A stretch of DNA of 64,000 nucleotides, from the NCBI RefSeq assembly GCF_014202315.1, contig NZ_JACHGN010000016.1, positions 62,001 through 126,000 on the forward strand. The letters run 5' to 3'. The translations under genes were made by a program, and so were the position numbers. The notes beneath the pieces are model-generated. The model did not search any database. It was given only the letters and a program-made list of their open reading frames with translations, and was not told the origin of the DNA. Shown in pieces: positions 24,232 to 63,448 of the stretch (within the stretch, counting starts at the first letter, position 1; each line of letters opens with the position of its first letter). The DNA comes from Thermocatellispora tengchongensis (lineage in GTDB: Bacteria; Actinomycetota; Actinomycetes; Streptosporangiales; Streptosporangiaceae).

Positions 24232-24483
24232 GTGGAGGCCCACGCCTGTCCGATGACCTCCTGCGCCGCCCCTGCCGGCTCGCCCTGCCGGACCGGCAAG
24301 GGCAAGGTGGCCGTCCAGTACCACACCGCCCGCTTCCGGCTCGTGCCTGCGCTCGCCAAGACGCTCACCGTGGCGACCCCGGCCGTCCGCAAGCCGGGCA
24401 CGCTCTGGATCGAACTGCCCCGTCCGACCGCGCCCGGCGCAGAACCGGGGGTCGAGCAGCAATGGAACGGCCAGTGGCGTTAG
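24232..24483 (+). pseudogene. zinc-finger protein cut by the Tn3 transposon
   Basis: The reading frame gives ACPMTSCAAPAGSPCRTGKG and AVQYHTARFRLVPALAKTLT, a small actinobacterial zinc-finger family (C-x3-C...GxPC...YHTARF) often found near mobile elements. From about 24447 the codons are those of the transposon's left inverted repeat, so the natural C-terminus is lost. Upstream the frame meets a stop shortly before 24200 and no ATG is available, so the 5' end is also doubtful. GTG 24232 is only the first possible start. Confidence 0.5.
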
Positions 24484-24485
24484 CA
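24448..24485 (+). repeat. left terminal inverted repeat of the Tn3 transposon
   Basis: Starts GGGGTCGAGCAGCAATGG and ends in GTGGCGTTAGCA. Only four positions differ from the right repeat (positions 6, 16, 17 and 38). Confidence 0.85.
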
Positions 24486-24612
24486 AGGCGGCGGTGCGCG
24501 GCTTACCGCCACTCGTCGTTCCAATCCGGGTGGAGCGTCGAATAGGCAAGCATCTTGTAACGGTTCCATCGCTCTAGGTGATCCGTCTGCCGGTTGGCCC
24601 TACTTTGCGGGC

Positions 24613-27567
24613 ATGCCGGTGGAGTTTTTGACGGATGATGAAGCTGCTGCGTACGGGCGATTCGCGGGGCCGCCGTCGCGGGCGGATCTGGAGCGAGTGT
24701 TCTTCCTCGATGACGAGGACCGGGCGCAGGTCGCGCAGCGGCGCGGTCAGCACATGAGGCTCGGGTTCGCGCTCCAGCTGGTGACAGTGCGGTGGCTGGG
24801 GACGTTCCTTGAGGACCCGCTGGATGTGCCGGGTGTGGTGCTGGAGTTCATGGCCGAGCAGCTGGAGGTCGAAGACCCCTCGCAGGTGAAGCGGTACGCC
24901 GAGCGGCGCGAGACGCCGTTCGATCACCAGCGGGACATCCGGCGGGCGTATGGGTGGAAGGACTTCACCGACGTTGACGGCGAGTTCGCGGCGTGGGTGA
25001 CGGCCCGTTCCTGGACATCGGGCGACGGACCGAAGGCGATCTTCACCGACGGGATCGGGTGGCTGCGAGAGCGGAAGGTACTGCTGCCGGGCGTGACGAC
25101 GCTGGCCCGGCTGGTGGCGAAGATCCGAGACGACACGACCAAGCGGCTGTGGGGTGTGCTGGAAGGGCTGCTGACGGGCGGGCAGCGGTCGGACATCGAA
25201 AGCCTGGAGCTTGCGGGCCTGGGGGCCGAAGCGCTGGTGCCGCCGCGTCGGCTGGGAGAGCTGGCCAAGTACGGGATGCGGGCAGACGCCTCCGCGCTGC
25301 GCCGTCATCCGGACGGCCGCCGACTGGCCACGCTGCTGGCCACGGTCCGGCACCTGGAGGGCAAGTCGGTCGACGACACCCTGGAACTGCTCGATCTGCT
25401 GATGGCGACCGAGCTGGTGAACAAGGCGCAGAACGCCTCTGACAAGGAGAAGGTCCGCAAGCACCCGAAGCTGGCGAAGTCCGCGGCCAGGTTGGCGGTC
25501 GCGGTGGAGGCGTTGTTTGAGTCCGACGGCTGGGGCGGCCCGGACGAGGAGGTCCGCGTGGCGGAGGTGTGGGAGGCGATCGAGACGGTCATCTCCCGCG
25601 CCGATCTGCGCGCGGCGCTGGTGCTGGTGAACGAAAGCGTGCCGCCGGCGGACGCCGCCGACCCCGACGACTGGCGGGCCGAGCTGCTGGGCCGGTACAC
25701 CACCGTGTCGGGGTTCTTGAAGGTGCTGCCCGAGGTGATCGAGTTCGGCGCGAATGCCGAGGGGACGCCGGTGCTGGAGGCGATGAAGGCGCTGCCGGAC
25801 GTGCTGACCTACCGCAGCCGCCTGCCCGCCCCGCTGATCCCCGGCCGCCTGGTCGACGCCGGCATGGTGAACAGCCCGTGGAAACGCCTGGTCTTTGGCC
25901 ACCCGATCCGCGAGGACGGCTCGGTGAACCGGCACGCCTACGCCTTCTGCGTGCTGGAGCGGTTCTGGCGCGGCCTCAAGCGCCGCGAAATCCACGCCGA
26001 CGCCTCCACCAAGTGGCGCAACCCCCAGGCTGAGCTGCTGGAAGGCGCCCAGTGGGAGGCGATCCGGCCTGACGCGCTCACCGCGCTCAGCCTCCCCACC
26101 GACCCCGACGCGCTGCTGGCCGAGCACTCGGCCACCCTGGACGCCGCCCTCCGCGAGGTCGGCGGACGCCTGACCGCCAACCCCGACGTCCGGGTCGACG
26201 GGGCGGGGAAGATCCACCTGACCGGGGTGAAGGCGATCGAGGAACCGCCGTCCCTGGTGGATCTGCGGGCCCGCACCACGGCGATGCTGCCGCGCGTGGA
26301 GCTGCCCGAGGTGATCTTGGAGGTCATGTCCTGGGTGCCCGAGCTGGCGGAGGCGTTCACCGCGGTGTCGGGAGGCCGGTCCCGGCTGGAGGACCTGCCG
26401 GTCTCGATCGCGGCCTGCTTGGCCGCACACTCCATGAACGTCGGCTACCGGCCGATCGCGAAGAAGGGCGTGCCCTCCCTGGAACGGTCGCGACTGTCGC
26501 ACATCTATCAGAACTACTTCCGGCCCGAGACCCTGGCGCCGGCGAACGCGCCGCTGGTCGCCCGCCAGGCCGGGTTGTCGCTGGCCCAGGCGTGGGGCGG
26601 CGGCCTGGTCGCCGCGGTCGACGGGATGCGGTTCGTCGTCCCGGTCCCCGCCGCGTTTGCCCGCCCCAACCGCAAGTACTTCGGCTCCAAACGCGGAATG
26701 ACCTGGCTGAACGCCATGAACGACCGCGGCATGGGACGCGGCGCGAAGGTTGTGTCGGGAACGATCCGCGACTCCCTGCACATGGTCGACGTCATCTTCG
26801 GCCTGGACGGCGGTGATCTCCCCGAGATCGTCGTGTCCGACACCGGCTCCTACAGCGACCTGGTCTTCGGCTTGCTGGAGCTGCTCGGGATCTCCTACCG
26901 GCCCGCGCTGGCGGATCTGCCCGATCAGAAGGGCTGGCGGATCAACGCGTCCGCGGAATATGGGCCGCTGGGCGCCTTCGCCCGGGGAAAGATCGACCTA
27001 CGGAAGATCCGGCGGAACTGGGAGGACATCCTGCGGGTGGTCGCCTCGATCTACACCGGCACCGTGCGGGCCTACGACGTCGTCACCATGCTCCAGCGTG
27101 ATGGCCACCCCACCGCGCTCGGCGAGGCGATCGCCTCCTACGGCAGGATCTTCAAGACTCTGCACATCCTGCAGTTCATCGACGTCGATGAGAGCTACCG
27201 CCGCGACATCAAGGACATCCGCAACCTCCAGGAGAACCGCCACTCCCTCGCCCGCAAGATCTGCCACGGCAAGAAGGGCGAGCTCTACCATCGCTACGAA
27301 CGCGGCCTGGAAAACCAGCTCGGCGCCCTCGGGCTTGTCCTCAACTGCGTCACCCTATGGACAACCGTCTACCTGGACGCCGCCGTCCGCCGACTCAAGG
27401 CCCAGGGCTACCCGGTCCGGGAGGAGGACATGGCCCGGCTGTCCCCGTTCGTCCACTCCCACCTCGGTGTCCACGGCACCTACACCTTTGCCTTGCCCGA
27501 GCTGGCCCCCGGCGCAATCCGCGACCTGCGTGACCCCGACGCCGCCGAAGACGACGACGAGATCTGA
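24613..27567 (+). CDS. tnpA: Tn3-family transposase TnpA
   Basis: 984 residues, full length. N-terminal DUF4158-type DNA-binding part (VEFLTDDEAAAYGRFAG, HMRLGFALQLVTVRWLG) and C-terminal DDE domain. The likely triad is Asp in GLVAAVDGMRFVVPVP, Asp in EIVVSDTGSYSDLVFG, and Glu in LENQLGALGLVLNCVTLWTT. It carries out replicative transposition by binding the 38-bp ends. A TACTTT -10 box at 24601-24606 lies 6 bases before ATG 24613, so the message is probably leaderless. The frame has no interruption. Confidence 0.96.
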   Translation: MPVEFLTDDEAAAYGRFAGPPSRADLERVFFLDDEDRAQVAQRRGQHMRLGFALQLVTVRWLGTFLEDPLDVPGVVLEFMAEQLEVEDPSQVKRYAERRETPFDHQRDIRRAYGWKDFTDVDGEFAAWVTARSWTSGDGPKAIFTDGIGWLRERKVLLPGVTTLARLVAKIRDDTTKRLWGVLEGLLTGGQRSDIESLELAGLGAEALVPPRRLGELAKYGMRADASALRRHPDGRRLATLLATVRHLEGKSVDDTLELLDLLMATELVNKAQNASDKEKVRKHPKLAKSAARLAVAVEALFESDGWGGPDEEVRVAEVWEAIETVISRADLRAALVLVNESVPPADAADPDDWRAELLGRYTTVSGFLKVLPEVIEFGANAEGTPVLEAMKALPDVLTYRSRLPAPLIPGRLVDAGMVNSPWKRLVFGHPIREDGSVNRHAYAFCVLERFWRGLKRREIHADASTKWRNPQAELLEGAQWEAIRPDALTALSLPTDPDALLAEHSATLDAALREVGGRLTANPDVRVDGAGKIHLTGVKAIEEPPSLVDLRARTTAMLPRVELPEVILEVMSWVPELAEAFTAVSGGRSRLEDLPVSIAACLAAHSMNVGYRPIAKKGVPSLERSRLSHIYQNYFRPETLAPANAPLVARQAGLSLAQAWGGGLVAAVDGMRFVVPVPAAFARPNRKYFGSKRGMTWLNAMNDRGMGRGAKVVSGTIRDSLHMVDVIFGLDGGDLPEIVVSDTGSYSDLVFGLLELLGISYRPALADLPDQKGWRINASAEYGPLGAFARGKIDLRKIRRNWEDILRVVASIYTGTVRAYDVVTMLQRDGHPTALGEAIASYGRIFKTLHILQFIDVDESYRRDIKDIRNLQENRHSLARKICHGKKGELYHRYERGLENQLGALGLVLNCVTLWTTVYLDAAVRRLKAQGYPVREEDMARLSPFVHSHLGVHGTYTFALPELAPGAIRDLRDPDAAEDDDEI

Positions 27568-27597
27568 CCCCTCCCGCCGGCGGCGGCTACTTCCGGG

Positions 27598-27745
27598 CGT
27601 TCATCTAACGACCGTTAGATGAACGTCGAGCCGAGCGTGGCCAGGCGAGCCGTCAGATCCCGTCAAAGCGTTCATCTTGCCGTTCATTTTCCAATAGTGT
27701 TCAGCTACCTCTCACGGCACGTTTGATGAACGGAGGGCGCTTTCC
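27598..27745. promoter_or_regulatory. res-like resolution site between tnpA and tnpR
   Basis: A perfect 28-bp dyad CGTTCATCTAACG-AC-CGTTAGATGAACG (27598-27625) has the length and 2-bp centre of a resolvase crossover site. Related half-sites follow: CGTTCATC (27669-27676), CGTTCATT (27681-27688) and GATGAACG (27725-27732). The last overlaps the tnpR ribosome-binding site, so resolvase bound there should repress its own gene. Confidence 0.75.
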
Positions 27746-28321
27746 ATGGCGCTCATCGGCCTGGTCCGGGTCAGTACCGACAAGCAGAACACCCAGCGGC
27801 AGCACGACGCCCTCGACCCCATCTGCCTGAAGGTCTTCGAGGAGAAGATCAGCGGCAAACTCGCCACCGACGACCGGCCCGCGCTGCTGAACGCGCTCTC
27901 CCACATCCGTGACGGCGACCTGCTGACCGTCCAGGAGGTCGACCGCCTCGGCCGCAACCTCCTGGAAGGGCTGATCGTCCTCAACGACCTGTTCCAGCGC
28001 GGTGTCGGCGTCAAGGTGCTGGAGGGCATAGCGGCCGGCGAGCACATCGAACGCTCCCTCATCCTCGACCTGGCCCTCGCCCTGGCCGAAGACCGCCGCC
28101 GCGACATCACGCGCAAGACCAAGAACGGCCTGGAGGCCGCCCGCAAACGCGGCCGGGTCGGCGGCCGCCGTCCTGTGGTTGACGACGACAAACGCGCCGC
28201 CATTCTCGCCCGGCGCCAGCGCGGCGAATCCATCCGTACCATCGCCGCCGGAGTCAAAGTCTCCGTCGGTGTCGTCCACAAGACCCTCGCGGAGTCCGGC
28301 GTTGATGGCGACTCCAGGTAG
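27746..28321 (+). CDS. tnpR: serine resolvase TnpR
   Basis: 191 residues. Catalytic N-terminal domain with the nucleophilic Ser in ALIGLVRVSTDKQNTQ, the arginine-bearing DRPALLNALSHIRDGD and VDRLGRN, the long E-helix (LALALAEDRRRDITRKTKNG), and a C-terminal helix-turn-helix (ESIRTIAAGVKVSVGVVHKT). It resolves cointegrates at the adjacent res-like site. ATG 27746 has CGGAGGG upstream. A second copy of the C-terminal half lies at 30668-30883. Confidence 0.95.
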   Translation: MALIGLVRVSTDKQNTQRQHDALDPICLKVFEEKISGKLATDDRPALLNALSHIRDGDLLTVQEVDRLGRNLLEGLIVLNDLFQRGVGVKVLEGIAAGEHIERSLILDLALALAEDRRRDITRKTKNGLEAARKRGRVGGRRPVVDDDKRAAILARRQRGESIRTIAAGVKVSVGVVHKTLAESGVDGDSR

Positions 28322-28460
28322 TTGCAGGCAGCGAGTCCTTCCGCTCCTTGTCGGTCGGCTCCTCCCAGGCCGAAACAGAGGGTTCCTTCGTGGGCGAGCC
28401 GCCCGGAACCTGCCCGACCAGCTCGACGCGCCGCCGACCAACACCGGTGAGCAGCATCGC

Positions 28461-28743
28461 GTGCCCGCATCGGACCCGGACGCGACCCTCGATCTGCCGG
28501 GACTGCTCGCCGATCACCTGCGTACCACTGGTGATGAAACCGTCCGCCAGGCCCTCGCCTCCGGGCAGACCATCCGTCGCGGCCACGGCTACTCGGTCCG
28601 CATCACGGCCCCGCTCACACTCCACCGCGTCGCGCTGGAACAGAGCGCCGCCCTCGCCGGCCGGCCCGACCGAGCGCAAGGCGCACCGCGTGTACGCCGC
28701 CCGTGTCACAGCCGTTCAGGCCACCCCACTGCATCCCTCATGA
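28461..28743 (+). pseudogene. frameshifted hypothetical protein carried by the transposon
   Basis: One frame gives TLDLPGLLADHLRTTGDET and TIRRGHGYSVRITAPLTLHR; about 28668 it must shift to give PTERKAHRVYAARVTAVQA and a natural stop at 28743. Together these look like one small hydrophilic protein family seen next to recombinases, but I cannot name it. A one-base indel breaks it. GTG 28461 is a weak start. Confidence 0.45.
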
Positions 28744-28840
28744 GCTGCGACACGGCAAAGCCGCTCAACGCTGCCCTGCTAACGGGACTTTTCGTTCGGA
28801 TCCTCGTCGTGCCCCGTTCCGCACCACCCCCTCCGGCGGG

Positions 28841-29029
28841 ATGAGCGTAGGGACCGTCTTGAACAAGCTGGCTGAGACCGCCGAGCACGTCGGCGAGTTC
28901 GCCCGCGAGTTCGCCGCCCAGAACTGGGTCGACATGGATGAGGAAGAGGCCGTTGGCTGGCGCAAGGCCTTGGCGGACCTGGAGGCCGCTGCCGCCACCT
29001 TCCGCAGCACCGTGAACCTCATCGACTGA
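28841..29029 (+). CDS. small hypothetical cargo protein
   Basis: 62 residues, acidic and predicted helical (LNKLAETAEHVGEFAREFAA; EEAVGWRKALADLEAAAATF). No recognised domain. It is the last gene before the right end of the transposon. ATG 28841 follows GGCGGG; TTG 28860 is another possible start. Reading frame length and composition are gene-like, but function is unknown. Confidence 0.5.
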   Translation: MSVGTVLNKLAETAEHVGEFAREFAAQNWVDMDEEEAVGWRKALADLEAAAATFRSTVNLID

Positions 29030-29070
29030 CCGGGGCTCTGCAGGCCGCACAGCGCGACCACCCGCATTAG

Positions 29071-29125
29071 AACGGCCAGTGGCGATAACCCGAGCCCCAA
29101 CGGCTCGCTAACGCCACTGGCCGTT
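29071..29125. terminator. two-tier hairpin at the transposon right end
   Basis: Outer arms AACGGCCAGTGGCG (29071-29084) and its complement (29112-29125), inner arms CGAGCC/GGCTCG (29091-29096, 29102-29107) with a 5-base loop. The outer left arm is an extra partial copy of the terminal repeat in inverted orientation, so the hairpin is built from transposon-end sequence. Confidence 0.6.
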
Positions 29126-29143
29126 CGGTTGCTGCTCAACCCC
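29106..29143 (-). repeat. right terminal inverted repeat of the Tn3 transposon
   Basis: On the minus strand it starts GGGGTTGAGCAGCAACCG and ends GTGGCGTTAGCG. Confidence 0.85.
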
Positions 29144-29215
29144 CGATCCATGGTGCCGGCTACAGACCGCCTGCTGCGAGGCCCGGCCCCGCAGCAGAAA
29201 GAACCGGTGGCGCAG

Positions 29216-29716
29216 TCAGACGCCGCGGGTCCAGAACTCCTGCGCCGACCCCGTGAACGACGTCGGGTCGCCGGCGAGGAAGAATTCGTCCCACACCGGC
29301 CCGTCGGAGAGCTCCCAGTGCTCAACGGCCAGACCGTCCCTGAAGCGCCACGCGCCCATGCCGACGCGCGTCCAGATCCATTCGCCACGCGCCGTGCGGA
29401 ATGTCCCGTGGATGATGCCGTAATGGTCGTCGGCGAGGATCTGGTCGATCTCGAGGGGTTCGACGTTGGCGTCGGCGAGACTCGCCCGCCGCTTGGCGTA
29501 GCGGCGCAAGAAGTCCATTCCTCCGGTCGCCGCCAGACGCACGCCGCCGGTGTGAATCACCATGTCCGGAGACATCCGCTCCATCATTTTGCTGGTGTGC
29601 TCTTGTTGCCGCAGGAGCCGCTCGTCCTCACTGAGGCTCGGATCGGTCGTGATCGCCGCGCCGCCTCGGTACAGCTCGGCCAGCCACAAGGCGTTCGGAT
29701 GGGTGTCGGACAGCAT
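29216..29716 (-). CDS. nuclear-transport-factor-2-like (SnoaL-type) protein
   Basis: 166 residues. The cone-shaped NTF2 fold is suggested by the N-terminal helix (NALWLAELYRGGAAITT), MSPDMVIHTGGVRLAATGG and the strand-rich end GIIHGTFRTARGEWIWTRVG. Such proteins are small cyclases, isomerases or ligand binders; no catalytic residues can be assigned. ATG 29716 follows GAGAGGTG. It is the first gene right of the transposon. Confidence 0.75.
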   Translation of the reverse strand: MLSDTHPNALWLAELYRGGAAITTDPSLSEDERLLRQQEHTSKMMERMSPDMVIHTGGVRLAATGGMDFLRRYAKRRASLADANVEPLEIDQILADDHYGIIHGTFRTARGEWIWTRVGMGAWRFRDGLAVEHWELSDGPVWDEFFLAGDPTSFTGSAQEFWTRGV

Positions 29717-30655: not shown

Positions 30656-30667
30656 CGGCCGGCCCCC

Positions 30668-30883
30668 AAGAACGGCCTCGAAGCCGCCCGCAAACGCGGC
30701 CGGATCGGCGGCCGCCGTCCCGTGGTCGACGACGACAAACGCGCCGCCATCCTCGCCCGCCGAGGGCGCGGCGAATCCATCCGCACCATCGCCGCCGGCG
30801 TCAAAGTCTCCGTCGGCGTCGTCCACAAGACCCTCGCCGATGCTCAGGGCGCCGCCGCGGCCGCCGAGGGCAACCACGGCTGA
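30668..30883 (+). pseudogene. C-terminal fragment of a second Tn3 resolvase
   Basis: KNGLEAARKRGRIGGRRPVV ... ESIRTIAAGVKVSVGVVHKT is nearly identical to the end of the resolvase at 27746. The catalytic domain is absent. It was joined at about 30666 to the acyl-CoA dehydrogenase fragment, marking the edge of a former second transposon. Confidence 0.85.
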
Positions 30884-31290: not shown

Positions 31291-31370
31291 TCACCCGTCG
31301 ACGCAGAGTAACTTGCGGGAATTGCCATTCTCGGTAGTTGCTGGCGGGCGACGCCACGCAACAGACACGA

Positions 31371-31403
31371 TTTTCTGTTTTTGATTTTCTGGAAAACAGA
31401 AAA
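31371..31403. promoter_or_regulatory. 33-bp AT-rich inverted repeat upstream of the coiled-coil gene
   Basis: TTTTCTGTTTT (31371-31381) and AAAACAGAAAA (31393-31403) are perfect 11-base arms around TGATTTTCTGG. It ends 15 bases before the GTG at 31419 and covers the likely promoter. An AT-rich dyad of this size stands out in such GC-rich DNA and looks like an autoregulatory operator. Confidence 0.65.
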
Positions 31404-31418
31404 TGGTAGGGTGCGCGT

Positions 31419-32630
31419 GTGGCGACGGAGATCGACAGTGGGGTTGGGCAGTGCAAGCACTGCGGGGCGGTCATCGAGCGGCGGCAGGGGAGGGGGCGGC
31501 CCAGGGAGTACTGTCCGCAGGGCGACTGTCAGGCGGCGGCCAAGCGGGAGCGCGAGATGCGGCGGGCGACCCCCGGGCTGGAGGGGGCGCTGACCCGGGC
31601 CGAGGAGCTGTATGAGCGGATGGAGAAGGGGCTGGCGGCGGCCATCGCGCCCCTGGCCGACGCGCTGGCCCAGGAGCTGAGCCCGGCGGGGGTGGAGGCG
31701 CGGATCAGTGCGGTGCAGGCCGAGGCGCACACGCGTGTGGCCATCGCGCGTACCGAGCGGGAGCAGGCCTTCGAGCAGGTCCGCCTCGCCCGCGAGGCCA
31801 CCGAGCATGCCCGCAGGGAGCGCGATGAGATGCGCGCCCGCGCCGAGGAGGCCGACGCCGAACGCGAGATGGCCCTTGGCGACGCAGAGAGGGCGCGCGA
31901 GCAGGCGCTGGCCGCCCTGAGAGAGGCGGCCACCACCGAGCGGCGGGCCAAGCAGGCCGCCAAGCAGGCGCGGGAGCAGGCCGAGCGGGCCGAGCGCGCC
32001 CGCGACGCCGCCGTACGGGAGATGAACGAGCGGGTAGAAGCCGCCGAGGCCGTCGCCGCCGCGGCGGAGGCCGCCGCCGGGGAGGCCCGGCACACCGCCA
32101 GGCAGGCCGCGGAGGAACGCGACGCCGCCCTCGCCCGCGCCGAGGCCGCCGAGCGAGGCAGGCTGGACGCCGAGCAGGCCGCGGCGGCGTCCGCCGCTCG
32201 CGCCGAGGCCGCCGAGGCGGAGCGGGACCGGGCCGTGGCACGTGCGGAGGCCGCCGAGGAGGCCAGGTCACAGGCCCTGGCCGAGTCGGCCGCGCAACGC
32301 GCCACGGCCGAGGCCGAGATCGCCGCCCTGCGCACGCAGGCCGTCCAGGCGGCCGAACGGGCCGAGCGCGAGGTGCGTACGGCCGCTCAGCGGCTCGAAG
32401 AGGAGCGCCACGCCGCCGCCGAGCGCATCGCCCAGGCCGAACAGCGCGAACGCGAGGCCGCCGCCGAACGCGACCGGCTGCGCATGGAACACGCCCTGCA
32501 GAGCGCCACCTGCGCCGACCTGCGCGCCCAGCTCGACGCCGCCCTCGCCGAGGCGGCCGCGCTACGGGAGCGCGCCATCGCCGCCGAACTGCGCTTGCGT
32601 CCCGACGGTGGCGCGGAACAGGTCGGGTAG
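31419..32630 (+). CDS. zinc-ribbon and long coiled-coil protein (KfrA-like layout)
   Basis: 403 residues. The N-terminal ~40 residues contain four cysteines (CKHCG ... REYCPQGDC) that could bind zinc, with an arginine-rich loop. Residues ~55-395 are an almost unbroken alanine/glutamate/arginine coiled coil (EREQAFEQVRLAREATEHAR and similar heptads). There is no signal peptide or membrane segment. A small DNA-binding head plus long coiled coil recalls plasmid KfrA-type proteins, although the KfrA N-terminal domain itself is not visible. GTG 31419 follows GGTAGGG. It is intact within a zone of transposon debris and has its own AT-rich dyad, so it was probably mobile cargo. Function unknown. Confidence 0.8.
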   Translation: MATEIDSGVGQCKHCGAVIERRQGRGRPREYCPQGDCQAAAKREREMRRATPGLEGALTRAEELYERMEKGLAAAIAPLADALAQELSPAGVEARISAVQAEAHTRVAIARTEREQAFEQVRLAREATEHARRERDEMRARAEEADAEREMALGDAERAREQALAALREAATTERRAKQAAKQAREQAERAERARDAAVREMNERVEAAEAVAAAAEAAAGEARHTARQAAEERDAALARAEAAERGRLDAEQAAAASAARAEAAEAERDRAVARAEAAEEARSQALAESAAQRATAEAEIAALRTQAVQAAERAEREVRTAAQRLEEERHAAAERIAQAEQREREAAAERDRLRMEHALQSATCADLRAQLDAALAEAAALRERAIAAELRLRPDGGAEQVG

Positions 32631-34668: not shown

Positions 34669-34920
34669 CGACCTGACCGGCGGACTGACGATCCAGCCAG
34701 GCAGCGGCCTTCGCCCGTTGTCAGGGTGAAGACCGTGCGGCATTGCCACCGGTTCGGTCTGGCGGGCGATCCGGTCCGTGGGCGTGTCCGTCCCGTGCCA
34801 ATGACGGCGGTCCGACCCGGCCTGAGCAGGCGAGAGACCCCGGGCGACCAGCAGGACCGCATTCCCACAATCCGTCCGTTCGACTGCCCTTCGCAACCGA
34901 TCCAAAGGAGGCAGACCACC

Positions 34921-35328
34921 ATGCCCATCACCCTTACCGCCCAGGACAAGATCACCCTGCGTACCGCCGCCTACGGCGCCGTCTCGTTGATCGTCGCCGC
35001 TGACGCGACCGGCAAGCCGCACCGGGCCGCGACCGACGGCTCCATCGCCCTGGGTTCCGCGACCGGCCTGGTCGGGCACGTGCTGGCCGAGTGGCCCAAG
35101 GGGGTGAACCTGAGCGGCAAGTCCGTGGCCGAACTCGCCGACCTGGTGCTGCCGGCTCTGACGGCGGCCATGAGCCTGCTCAAGCAGCAGGCTCCGGCAG
35201 AGGCCGGCAACTTCCGCAGTACCGTCGTCGTCGCCGTCGAAGCAGCCGCCCGTACTCACCAGGGCCGGCCCAGCCCCGTCCTGGCGGACATGATCCGCAA
35301 GATCACCGCAGCCCTCGACGCCGCTTGA
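34921..35328 (+). CDS. conserved 135-residue protein of unknown function, paralogue A
   Basis: A soluble, probably all-helical protein with no recognised domain, signal peptide or membrane segment. Landmarks shared by all three copies in the window: QDKITLRTAAYGAVSL near the start, SATGLVGHVLA at residue ~45, VLPALTAAMSLLKQQAPAEA at ~80, GNFRSTVVVAVEAA and the end RKITAALDA. The perfect conservation of these blocks against variable linkers (residues 59-69) suggests a real structural unit. RBS AAAGGAGG is strong. A GC-rich hairpin at 35339-35357 ends the unit. Confidence 0.85.
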   Translation: MPITLTAQDKITLRTAAYGAVSLIVAADATGKPHRAATDGSIALGSATGLVGHVLAEWPKGVNLSGKSVAELADLVLPALTAAMSLLKQQAPAEAGNFRSTVVVAVEAAARTHQGRPSPVLADMIRKITAALDAA

Positions 35329-60362: not shown

Positions 60363-60770
60363 TCACCTCCCGGCGTCGAGAGCCTCGGTGATCTTGCGGG
60401 CCATCTCCGCCATGGTCGGGCTGACCTCGCCCTGCTGGGACCGGGTGGCCGCCTCGACGGCGACGAGGACGGTGCGGCGGAAGTTGCCCGCCTCGGCCGG
60501 GTCCTGCTCCTTGAGCAGGCTCATGGACGCCGTCAGGGCCGGCAGCACCTGGTCGGCGAGCTGGGCCACGGTCGTGCCGTACTTCACGCCCTTGGGCGCC
60601 TTGGCGAGCACGTGCCCGACCAGGCCGGTCGCGGAGGTCAGGGCGATGGAGCCCTCGGTGCCGGCCTTGTGGGCAGAGCCGGCGGCACCGGCGGCGGACA
60701 TCAGCGAGACGGCGCCCCACGCGGCGGTGCGAAGAGTGATCTTGTCCTGCTCGTGGAGGGTGACGGTCAT
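60363..60770 (-). CDS. conserved 135-residue protein of unknown function, paralogue C
   Basis: 135 residues, sharing with copies A (34921) and B (63041) the blocks QDKITLRTAAWGAVSL, SATGLVGHVLA, VLPALTASMSLLKEQDPAEA, GNFRRTVLVAVEAATR and RKITEALDA. Differences cluster in residues 59-70. No recognised domain. RBS GAAGGAG precedes the ATG. The conserved promoter block lies about 180 bases upstream, with only a 24-codon ORF between, unlike copies A and B where a hydrolase gene intervenes. Confidence 0.88.
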   Translation of the reverse strand: MTVTLHEQDKITLRTAAWGAVSLMSAAGAAGSAHKAGTEGSIALTSATGLVGHVLAKAPKGVKYGTTVAQLADQVLPALTASMSLLKEQDPAEAGNFRRTVLVAVEAATRSQQGEVSPTMAEMARKITEALDAGR

Positions 60771-60861
60771 GACTGCATGCTCCTTCGAACCGATTGAGAA
60801 GAATTCACCTCAACGGACCGGCGGCGGATGCGGCCCTGCCGAGGGCCCCGGTGCGGATCGC

Positions 60862-62997: not shown

Positions 62998-63040
62998 AGC
63001 CGCCATCGCATTCCGTAACGTTTCCAAGGAGCACACCAGC

Positions 63041-63448
63041 ATGTCCATCACCCTCACCGACCAGGACAAGTCCACCCTGCGCACCGCCGCGTACGGCGCC
63101 GTGTCGCTGATGTCCGCCGCCGGTGCCGGCGGCTCGGCGCACAAGGCCGCCACCGGCGGCTCCATCGCCCTGGCCTCCGCCACCGGCCTGGTCGGGCACG
63201 TGCTCGCCGAAAAGCGCCGGGACATCGACCTGCACGGCAGGTCCGTGGCCGCGCTCGCCGACCATGTGCTGCCGGCGCTGACCGCGTCCATGAGCCTGCT
63301 CAAGCGGCAGGCTCCGGCCGAGGCCGGCAATTTCCGCCGCACCGTCCTCGTCGCCGTCGAAGCGGCCACCCGGGCCCAGAAGGGCGACCCCGGCCCCACC
63401 ATGGCGGAGATGGCCCGCAAGATCACCGTGGCCCTGGACGCCGCTTAG
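63041..63448 (+). CDS. conserved 135-residue protein of unknown function, paralogue B
   Basis: 135 residues with TLRTAAYGAVSLMSAAGAGG, SATGLVGHVLA, VLPALTASMSLLKRQAPAEA, GNFRRTVLVAVEAATR and RKITVALDA, closest to copy C in its second half. No domain, signal peptide or membrane helix. RBS CAAGGAG precedes the ATG. It follows a serine hydrolase and is followed by another (broken) one, so the family keeps company with hydrolases. Confidence 0.88.
   Translation: MSITLTDQDKSTLRTAAYGAVSLMSAAGAGGSAHKAATGGSIALASATGLVGHVLAEKRRDIDLHGRSVAALADHVLPALTASMSLLKRQAPAEAGNFRRTVLVAVEAATRAQKGDPGPTMAEMARKITVALDAA

Follow-up and report, generated by a model that had tools for sequence, protein, structure and literature searches.

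A single-copy zinc-ribbon/coiled-coil protein gene with a conserved control region and a putative role near the chromosome terminus of Streptosporangiaceae

Introduction

What does a protein with a small cysteine-bearing head and a long coil do when its gene stands under an AT-rich inverted repeat amid the debris of transposable elements, and does such a gene belong to that mobile DNA or to the chromosome around it? The question is raised by a locus of Thermocatellispora tengchongensis lying in the window, by which we mean the whole stretch of 64,000 nucleotides that was analysed (contig NZ_JACHGN010000016.1, positions 62,001 to 126,000). A preliminary description of this DNA compared the layout of the gene with that of KfrA and other plasmid partition accessories, and proposed a new type of nucleoid or segregation protein carried by mobile DNA. 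Here we follow the gene, its control region and its neighbours through related genomes and plasmids, and weigh the roles that the protein may have.

Results

An invariant zinc-ribbon head, a variable coil and a conserved tip

The gene (31419-32630, forward strand) is an open reading frame of 403 codons with a GTG start. The four-cysteine head and long coil of the preliminary description were both recovered, the former as C-x2-C-x16-C-x4-C (residues 12-37; 31452-31529, forward strand), in which Cys12, Cys15, Cys32 and Cys37 are invariant across the aligned heads (n = 30), and the latter as predicted helices. The AlphaFold2 model (mean pLDDT 81.8, pTM 0.32) has a small two-strand head followed mostly by helix over residues 35-392, with helices at 35-50, 54-87, 89-234 and 252-392 and a low-confidence break at residues 233-246, midway along them, where the coil might fold back as a hairpin. 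Foldseek found no PDB match to the predicted structure at E ≤ 0.001. Over its whole length the protein matched no Pfam family (E ≤ 1) and passed no Pfam or NCBIfam cut-off. Isolated heads gave weak matches only, mostly to zinc fingers, Fpg-type and CGNR-type fingers among them (best E of 0.0077 for zf-CGNR, in 5 of 30 heads, and of 0.088 for zf-FPG_IleRS, in 6 of 30 heads). The head thus shares with those fingers a C-x2-C ... YC-x(2-4)-C ribbon, which we take to be the spacing of the Fpg/CGNR type and which likely touches DNA, whereas every one of these matches falls under the curated cut-offs.

Among relatives the coil varies in sequence and both ends are kept, namely the head with its adjoining stretch and a C-terminal tip, LRERAIAAEL in the window (32562-32591, forward strand). 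The tip motif RERAxxAE occurs in 80 of 82 proteins, and its absence from the other two (L065 and L103) results from a reading cut short. A literature search gave nothing on this zinc-ribbon/coiled-coil protein among the matches listed; the module of gene and sites described below is real and conserved and, as far as that search goes, apparently undescribed.

A control region of fixed spacing

Directly upstream of the gene lies the AT-rich dyad (31370-31404), a putative operator, which had been reported as a perfect 11-11-11 inverted repeat. Perfect it is, with slightly longer arms (12-11-12) around an inner palindromic core at 31385-31395, and it holds three ATTTTCTG half-sites, the third of them inside the dyad at 31384-31391. 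As had been claimed, it is unlike the rest of the window: the dyad pattern gave a single match there and 0 in 100 shuffles. Its conservation ahead of homologues was also confirmed, since in 80 of 82 loci (the window, N. gerenzanensis and 80 retained relatives) the dyad core is found no more than 600 bp upstream of the gene; in the other two (L053 and L075) an insertion sets it about 1.1 kb ahead of the gene. In these two Nonomuraea loci (L053 8780-10020; L075 near 8830) the insert of about 1.1 kb separates the control region from the gene, the N-terminus of which is changed.

Two further elements, both absent from the preliminary description, accompany the dyad. One is a conserved box of consensus CGCAACRGATC, here CGCAACAGACA (31357-31367, forward strand); of 82 loci examined, 78 score at least 8/11 for it, and in 73 of these it starts 28 bp ahead of the operator core. 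The other, IR1, is a 28-bp palindrome of 11-6-11 build and tyrosine-recombinase type, ACTTGCGGGAA-TTGCCA-TTCTCGGTAGT (31311-31338, forward strand). Across the 82 loci IR1 takes the form ACTTGCGGGAA - 6 or 7 - TTCTCGCAAGT and variants, and it stands upstream in 67 loci (68 less a false match in L087 that was taken out by hand). In eight loci of Acrocarpospora and Herbidospora a different palindrome, recognised by eye as CATAACGAGGATTATG, is present, at 65 bp in the five measured; the control set is displaced in the two loci with an insertion, and none was found in five (L067, L068, L084, L095 and L106). From the centre of IR1 to that of the operator the distance is 65-66.5 bp in 64 of the 67 loci, 55.5 bp, about one helical turn less, in two and 63.5 bp in one. 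The IR1 centre itself measures 7 bp in most Nonomuraea and 1 bp in L080, which is odd for a recombination site; in L080 the element has shrunk to a perfect palindrome around one central base pair, a form hard to reconcile with a working recombination site.

We searched 22 genomes, 19 of them carriers of the gene, for further copies of these sites. The IR1 pattern matched in 10 genomes, near the gene in all 10 (1.1 kb from it in G134) and at a single place in nine. The sole second IR1-type site, in G094 (G094:C5:195293-195320), is not adjacent to the copy of the gene there. Allowing 2 mismatches at most, a search with the operator palindrome gave 34 sites, of which 7 are own promoters and 27 are scattered, compared to 7 sites for a reversed-pattern control. 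Six of the 19 weak sites that could be mapped lie at 0.43 or more from dnaA, where 2.7 were expected (P = 0.04), a marginal lean towards the terminus. This whole-genome test is a weak one, because among 17 carriers the pattern picked up the gene's own promoter in 7 and missed it in 10. One weak, 2-mismatch copy of the operator lies in the window's own genome, on the same contig and about 135 kb from the gene (G000:C16:228691-228706).

A scan of the region for sigma-70 promoters found none. A putative -10-like hexamer, TAGGGT (31407-31412, forward strand), lies just ahead of the GTG start, and TAnnnT-like hexamers recur in the anchored alignment; this position directly ahead of the start codon suggests that the mRNA is probably leaderless.

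Single copy and mainly vertical inheritance

Homologues with a conserved head, as the preliminary description had anticipated, were found by searches across the family. The first 74 residues matched in 119 of 200 genomes of the GTDB family (E ≤ 1e-3, a threshold that takes in distant relatives), and a query of 110 residues matched in 159 of 315 family genomes, each at least 90% complete, with exactly one match in each (E ≤ 1e-15). The gene is thus single-copy. Of 112 confirmed related loci we kept 80 (L031-L110), from Nonomuraea, Microbispora, Sphaerisporangium, Planobispora and other genera. In a class-wide search, 31 of 393 genomes matched, including 11 that belong to other families.

In a rapidly built tree of 79 proteins, with L038, L065 and L103 left out, the sequences fell into groups by genus: for 14 genera, 13 changes suffice, the lowest number that could occur, with Nonomuraea, Microtetraspora and Streptosporangium each falling not quite on one side of a branch. 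Because the tree follows the genera, inheritance of the gene has been mainly vertical.

Location opposite dnaA and close to dif

Mapping against dnaA was possible in 25 genomes in which a single long contig holds both genes, and in 24 of these the distance between the two amounts to 0.43-0.50 of the length (binomial P = 7e-20 on the assumption of independent genomes, which these are not). Twelve of the 25 are single contigs and 13 consist of two to four, for which the length of the contig with both genes was used; in G258 the dnaA match was split and fell under the cut-off. The exception is G119, with the gene at 0.198 from dnaA, and a further one is likely G252, an uncounted draft of 10 contigs in which the two genes are 1.02 Mb apart. 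Outside the 25 are nine genomes with gene and dnaA on different contigs (G000, G056, G134, G171, G255, G256, G032, G172 and G061) and two for which a chromosome length was missing (G252 and G332, the latter with the genes 4.9 Mb apart on one 8.3-Mb contig). With one or two exceptions, then, the gene is confined to the terminus region in the mapped genomes. The window's own genome is in 62 contigs, and its copy would lie near the terminus too, judging from its relatives.

A canonical actinobacterial dif, searched with a pattern modelled on the Frankia site as given in the accessible part of PMC3025954, was recognised in 16 mapped genomes. In all 16 the gene lies 38-456 kb from it, within 4% of the chromosome, on either side (9 and 7) and oriented towards dif in 13. 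The dif patterns found none in 13 further carriers; a control pattern matched once, in G234, and weaker 2-mismatch hits in G250, G258, G271 and G286, like that on another contig of G000, were not used. The idea that IR1 is itself the chromosome's dif was rejected, given that these genomes have their canonical dif elsewhere. Since at least 16 genomes have that dif, the ordinary resolution of dimers does not require IR1.

Turnover of the neighbouring genes

Near the gene, pairs of Nonomuraea genomes have on average 0.09 gene neighbours in common (11 genomes, 55 pairs), and around dif in the same genomes the figure is 5.13 per pair. Genes were called by a simple composition-based script, so that the absolute numbers are rough, and L149, a second copy in one genome, was left out. 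For the window's type of gene, genomes of genus code g67 have 0.5 common neighbours per pair (6 pairs), and one g52 pair has 3. Partial sharing, of 3-5 neighbours, was seen in some Herbidospora and Microbispora pairs and in one Sphaerisporangium-Microbispora pair. The location is kept and the neighbours are mostly replaced, which indicates that the gene keeps to the terminus region while most of its surroundings turn over.

In the window those surroundings include a Tn3-family element (24446-29145) with a transposase (24613-27567) and a serine resolvase (27746-28321), bounded by an 88-bp inverted repeat (83%; 24446-24533 and 29058-29145), and a second resolvase fragment of 172 bp (92%) at about 30665-30837. 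The earlier picture of a lone intact gene among 4 kb of wreckage is thus broadly fair as regards the Tn3 and resolvase debris, except that a plausible SnoaL-like gene lies at 29216-29716. Downstream, a repeat of about 425 bp occurs three times, one copy inverted (34901-35326, 60371-60792 and 63022-63446; 81-85% identical), the first copy within an open reading frame of unknown kind (34726-35328). The 18 near neighbours read in ten Nonomuraea genomes include one IS4-type transposase, one tyrosine recombinase and no Tn3 gene, and a phage search gave no match. The single copy, the tree and the terminus location of this gene type led us to reject a mobile-DNA origin for the copy in the window and, with it, the proposal that the protein is carried by mobile DNA.

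Tyrosine recombinases linked to part of the loci

A XerD-like tyrosine recombinase (L166:6301-7404) recurs on these chromosomes. Its relatives occur in 95 of 315 genomes (E ≤ 1e-25); 30 genomes have a copy, or a fragment of one, that is at least 65% identical, and all 30 have the coil gene. Hand-reading placed this clade recombinase upstream of the coil gene, on the same strand and within 25 kb, in 25 of the 30 genomes (within 5 kb in 18); two of the remainder lie at 88 and 127 kb and three on other contigs. Additional fragments occur elsewhere in three of the 30 genomes, and several linked recombinases are broken (L104, L159, L171 and others). No recombinase of the clade (at least 65% identity, E ≤ 1e-25) was found in 129 of the 159 carriers, the window's genome included. 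Divergent relatives (about 51%) occur in L132 and L219. Distances between recombinases correlate with those between coil genes (Mantel r of 0.73 for 20 genomes and of 0.52 for 14 Nonomuraea), indicating only partial co-descent.

Of the 24 recombinases that were inspected, 16 are accompanied, at or before the start of their gene, by an 11-6-11 site whose inner ends read GATAA/TTATC. That of one subfamily, GCTTGCGATAA-GTTGCC-TTATCGTAAGC, resembles IR1; that of the main clade, ACCCGTGATAA-CCTTCC-TTATCGCGGGT, does so less. IR1 is also present in loci without a clade recombinase, such as the window, and its being kept there points to a host function, perhaps through the host's XerCD, or to a regulatory role. 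We also considered IR1 as an attachment site used repeatedly by integrating elements, which is disfavoured by its arms being intact beside resident recombinases.

A different recombinase occurs on a 358-kb replicon (L150) that codes for a distant homologue of the coil protein (31% in the aligned region). Here the XerC/D-like recombinase is the second of two open reading frames divergent from the coil gene, and a dif-like stretch and two TTTCYRGAAA sites lie between the two genes.

Plasmid homologues and a paralogous type

The resemblance to a KfrA-like plan holds, and relatives of the protein do occur on Streptomyces and Nocardiopsis plasmids. Starting from one that a plasmid of Nocardiopsis exhalans carries, we reached 18 records: 14 come from Streptomyces and 3 from Nocardiopsis, and the last is a chromosome of Nonomuraea entered as a plasmid. 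In four of five Streptomyces plasmids read, a 3'-5' exonuclease gene follows the homologue and mobC lies further on. Two plasmid homologues have a ParA/MinD-family gene 4-5 kb away, and one contig has a ParA-like gene nearby. A dyad of similar build lies directly ahead of a TAnnnT-like box in 6 of the 7 plasmid loci read and is degenerate in L178; the exact core TTTCYRGAAA occurs in two of the 7, as well as in L150 and L133, and three contigs of family code f15 have near-perfect versions of the dyad. These dyads common to plasmid homologues are the best evidence, indirect as it is, that the protein itself may read the dyad. Four of the Streptomyces plasmids (L173, L176, L177 and L178) carry a further palindrome, e.g. 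CTTCGCTTGTACAAGCGAAG, upstream of the dyad, possibly a centromere-like or recombination site.

A paralogous type (L134, L136-L149, L152 and L190-L192) has heads of the kind VWPCANCGRPVPQ and similar ('VWPCANCG...') and, in many members, the tail DREDPLFxxP. No dyad was seen with it. In the main family it lies at 0.30-0.45 of the chromosome from dnaA, and its members have 5.1 neighbours in common per pair in genus code g67 (10 pairs). The gene found in family code f32, outside the main family, is of this paralogous type without dyad, and lies opposite dnaA in G413 (0.495) and about 3.5 Mb from it in the 6.9-Mb draft G496.

Discussion

The gene likely has a role at the terminus, and a nucleoid or segregation protein, as proposed before, is possible. 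Each of three known systems covers part of the picture and, as far as tested, none fits by descent. In the cointegrate resolution of Tn4651-type elements, rst combines a core pair of inverted repeats with one more pair, between the divergent genes of TnpS and TnpT, according to the available part of PMC7157771. Within what that source covers, the present loci share with it a tyrosine recombinase and a helper, the former in part of the genomes, and a core inverted repeat with a second dyad in the control region by the helper gene, a likeness of arrangement only. Unlike that system, the locus is vertical, single-copy and chromosomal rather than part of a Tn3-family transposon, most carriers appear to do without the clade recombinase, and in the main clade this gene is co-oriented with the coil gene, not divergent from it.

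KfrA of IncP-1 and IncU plasmids, as far as the partial accounts go, shares the small N-terminal DNA-binding head, the long helical tail, an operator in its own promoter (putative here) and plasmid relatives. As the preliminary description had noted, the head differs, being a zinc ribbon with no KfrA_N match, and the present gene further differs in its place in the chromosomal terminus region and in its conserved C-terminal tip. The tus gene is preceded at 11 bp by TerB, through which it is autoregulated (the part available of PMC8707476). On that account Tus-TerB, like RTP, has in common with our gene that it is encoded at the terminus, with a site in its own promoter and with autoregulation, which we infer here; the site here is instead palindromic, no second one was found with the patterns used, and Pfam gave no terminator domain. 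MatP/matS could be a parallel as a terminus organiser, although here there is no clear array of sites, only weak and marginally biased ones, and no relation by Pfam.

The reading that we prefer, tentatively and at less than even confidence, is by analogy to TnpT: the protein would be an autoregulated DNA-bridging helper that builds a fixed complex at a site of recombination type within the terminus region. Dimers would use the zinc ribbon to bind the AT-rich dyad and would repress their own leaderless promoter; the bound dyad, the box and IR1 would then make up a nucleoprotein complex of fixed geometry, which the long coil with its conserved tip might bridge to the sister copy or to a partner. 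In the way that TnpT acts with TnpS at rst, the protein would thereby help Xer-type tyrosine recombination at IR1 and so the resolution of sister chromosomes near the terminus. We prefer this helper role because it uses most of the evidence; its main weakness is that most carriers are without a dedicated recombinase.

A serious though rather doubtful possibility is that the protein organises or segregates the terminus without any recombination, a polymerising or bridging coil of KfrA kind holding or positioning sister termini while the protein binds the promoter region and perhaps weaker sites. The KfrA-like plan, as far as described in the accessible parts of PMC7783346 and PMC7821693, argues for it, and so do the plasmid homologues, some with ParA-type genes nearby, the terminus-region location and the 27 weak operator-like sites, against 7 in the control, with their slight lean to the terminus. 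That lean is marginal, however, and AT-rich DNA may explain it; the protein, having no Pfam hit, belongs with neither KfrA_N nor MatP; and IR1 is left unexplained. It is improbable that the gene codes for an ordinary autoregulated regulator, with IR1 and the box being sites of other factors and the terminus a tolerated variable region. The dyad does overlap the promoter, a fixed helical spacing also suits activators acting there, and the varying centre of IR1 and the weak dyad-like sites elsewhere would cause no difficulty, but tolerance of the region does not by itself account for 24 of 25 genes lying near the terminus despite the almost complete replacement of their neighbours.

Quite improbable, too, is a fork barrier of the Tus/RTP kind, in which a protein encoded at the terminus would halt or slow replication forks while bound within its own promoter. 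Its genetic layout would be that of tus, going by the part of PMC8707476 that was available, the location is right, and 13 of 16 genes are transcribed towards dif. A trap needs both polarities, whereas nine of the ten genomes matching the IR1 pattern have no second IR1 and no near-perfect second dyad core was found with a pattern that caught the own promoter in 7 of 17 carriers; moreover, the gene with its site may stand to one side of dif or to the other, and the protein has no Pfam hit. That the gene is a passenger of a Tn3 or plasmid element we consider very improbable indeed: Tn3 and resolvase debris upstream in the window, homologues on plasmids and tyrosine recombinases adjoining the gene in some relatives would fit it, and the single copy, vertical tree, terminus location and Tn3-free neighbours in ten Nonomuraea genomes, with no phage match, speak against it.

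Circular-chromosome actinomycetes may possess a new terminus system made of a self-regulated zinc-ribbon/coil protein and a second Xer-type site other than dif, a proposal that we put forward as possible but somewhat unlikely. Taken as one claim, and in the same doubtful range, such a system would be kept at the terminus by selection amid the turnover of its neighbours, and a similar operator would serve plasmid maintenance.

The handling of the terminus is poorly known beyond a few model bacteria. That a single-copy gene lies near the terminus in many genera and has lost nearly all of its neighbours suggests that its place matters. With its rigidly conserved control region and recombination-type site, the gene hints that many soil actinobacteria may have a mechanism, so far unrecognised, for dealing with the end of chromosome replication. 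Nonomuraea, Microbispora and their relatives offer a concrete locus, with a protein, an operator, a recombination-type site and sometimes a recombinase, which may show a plasmid-type maintenance module becoming, or arising from, a chromosomal one.
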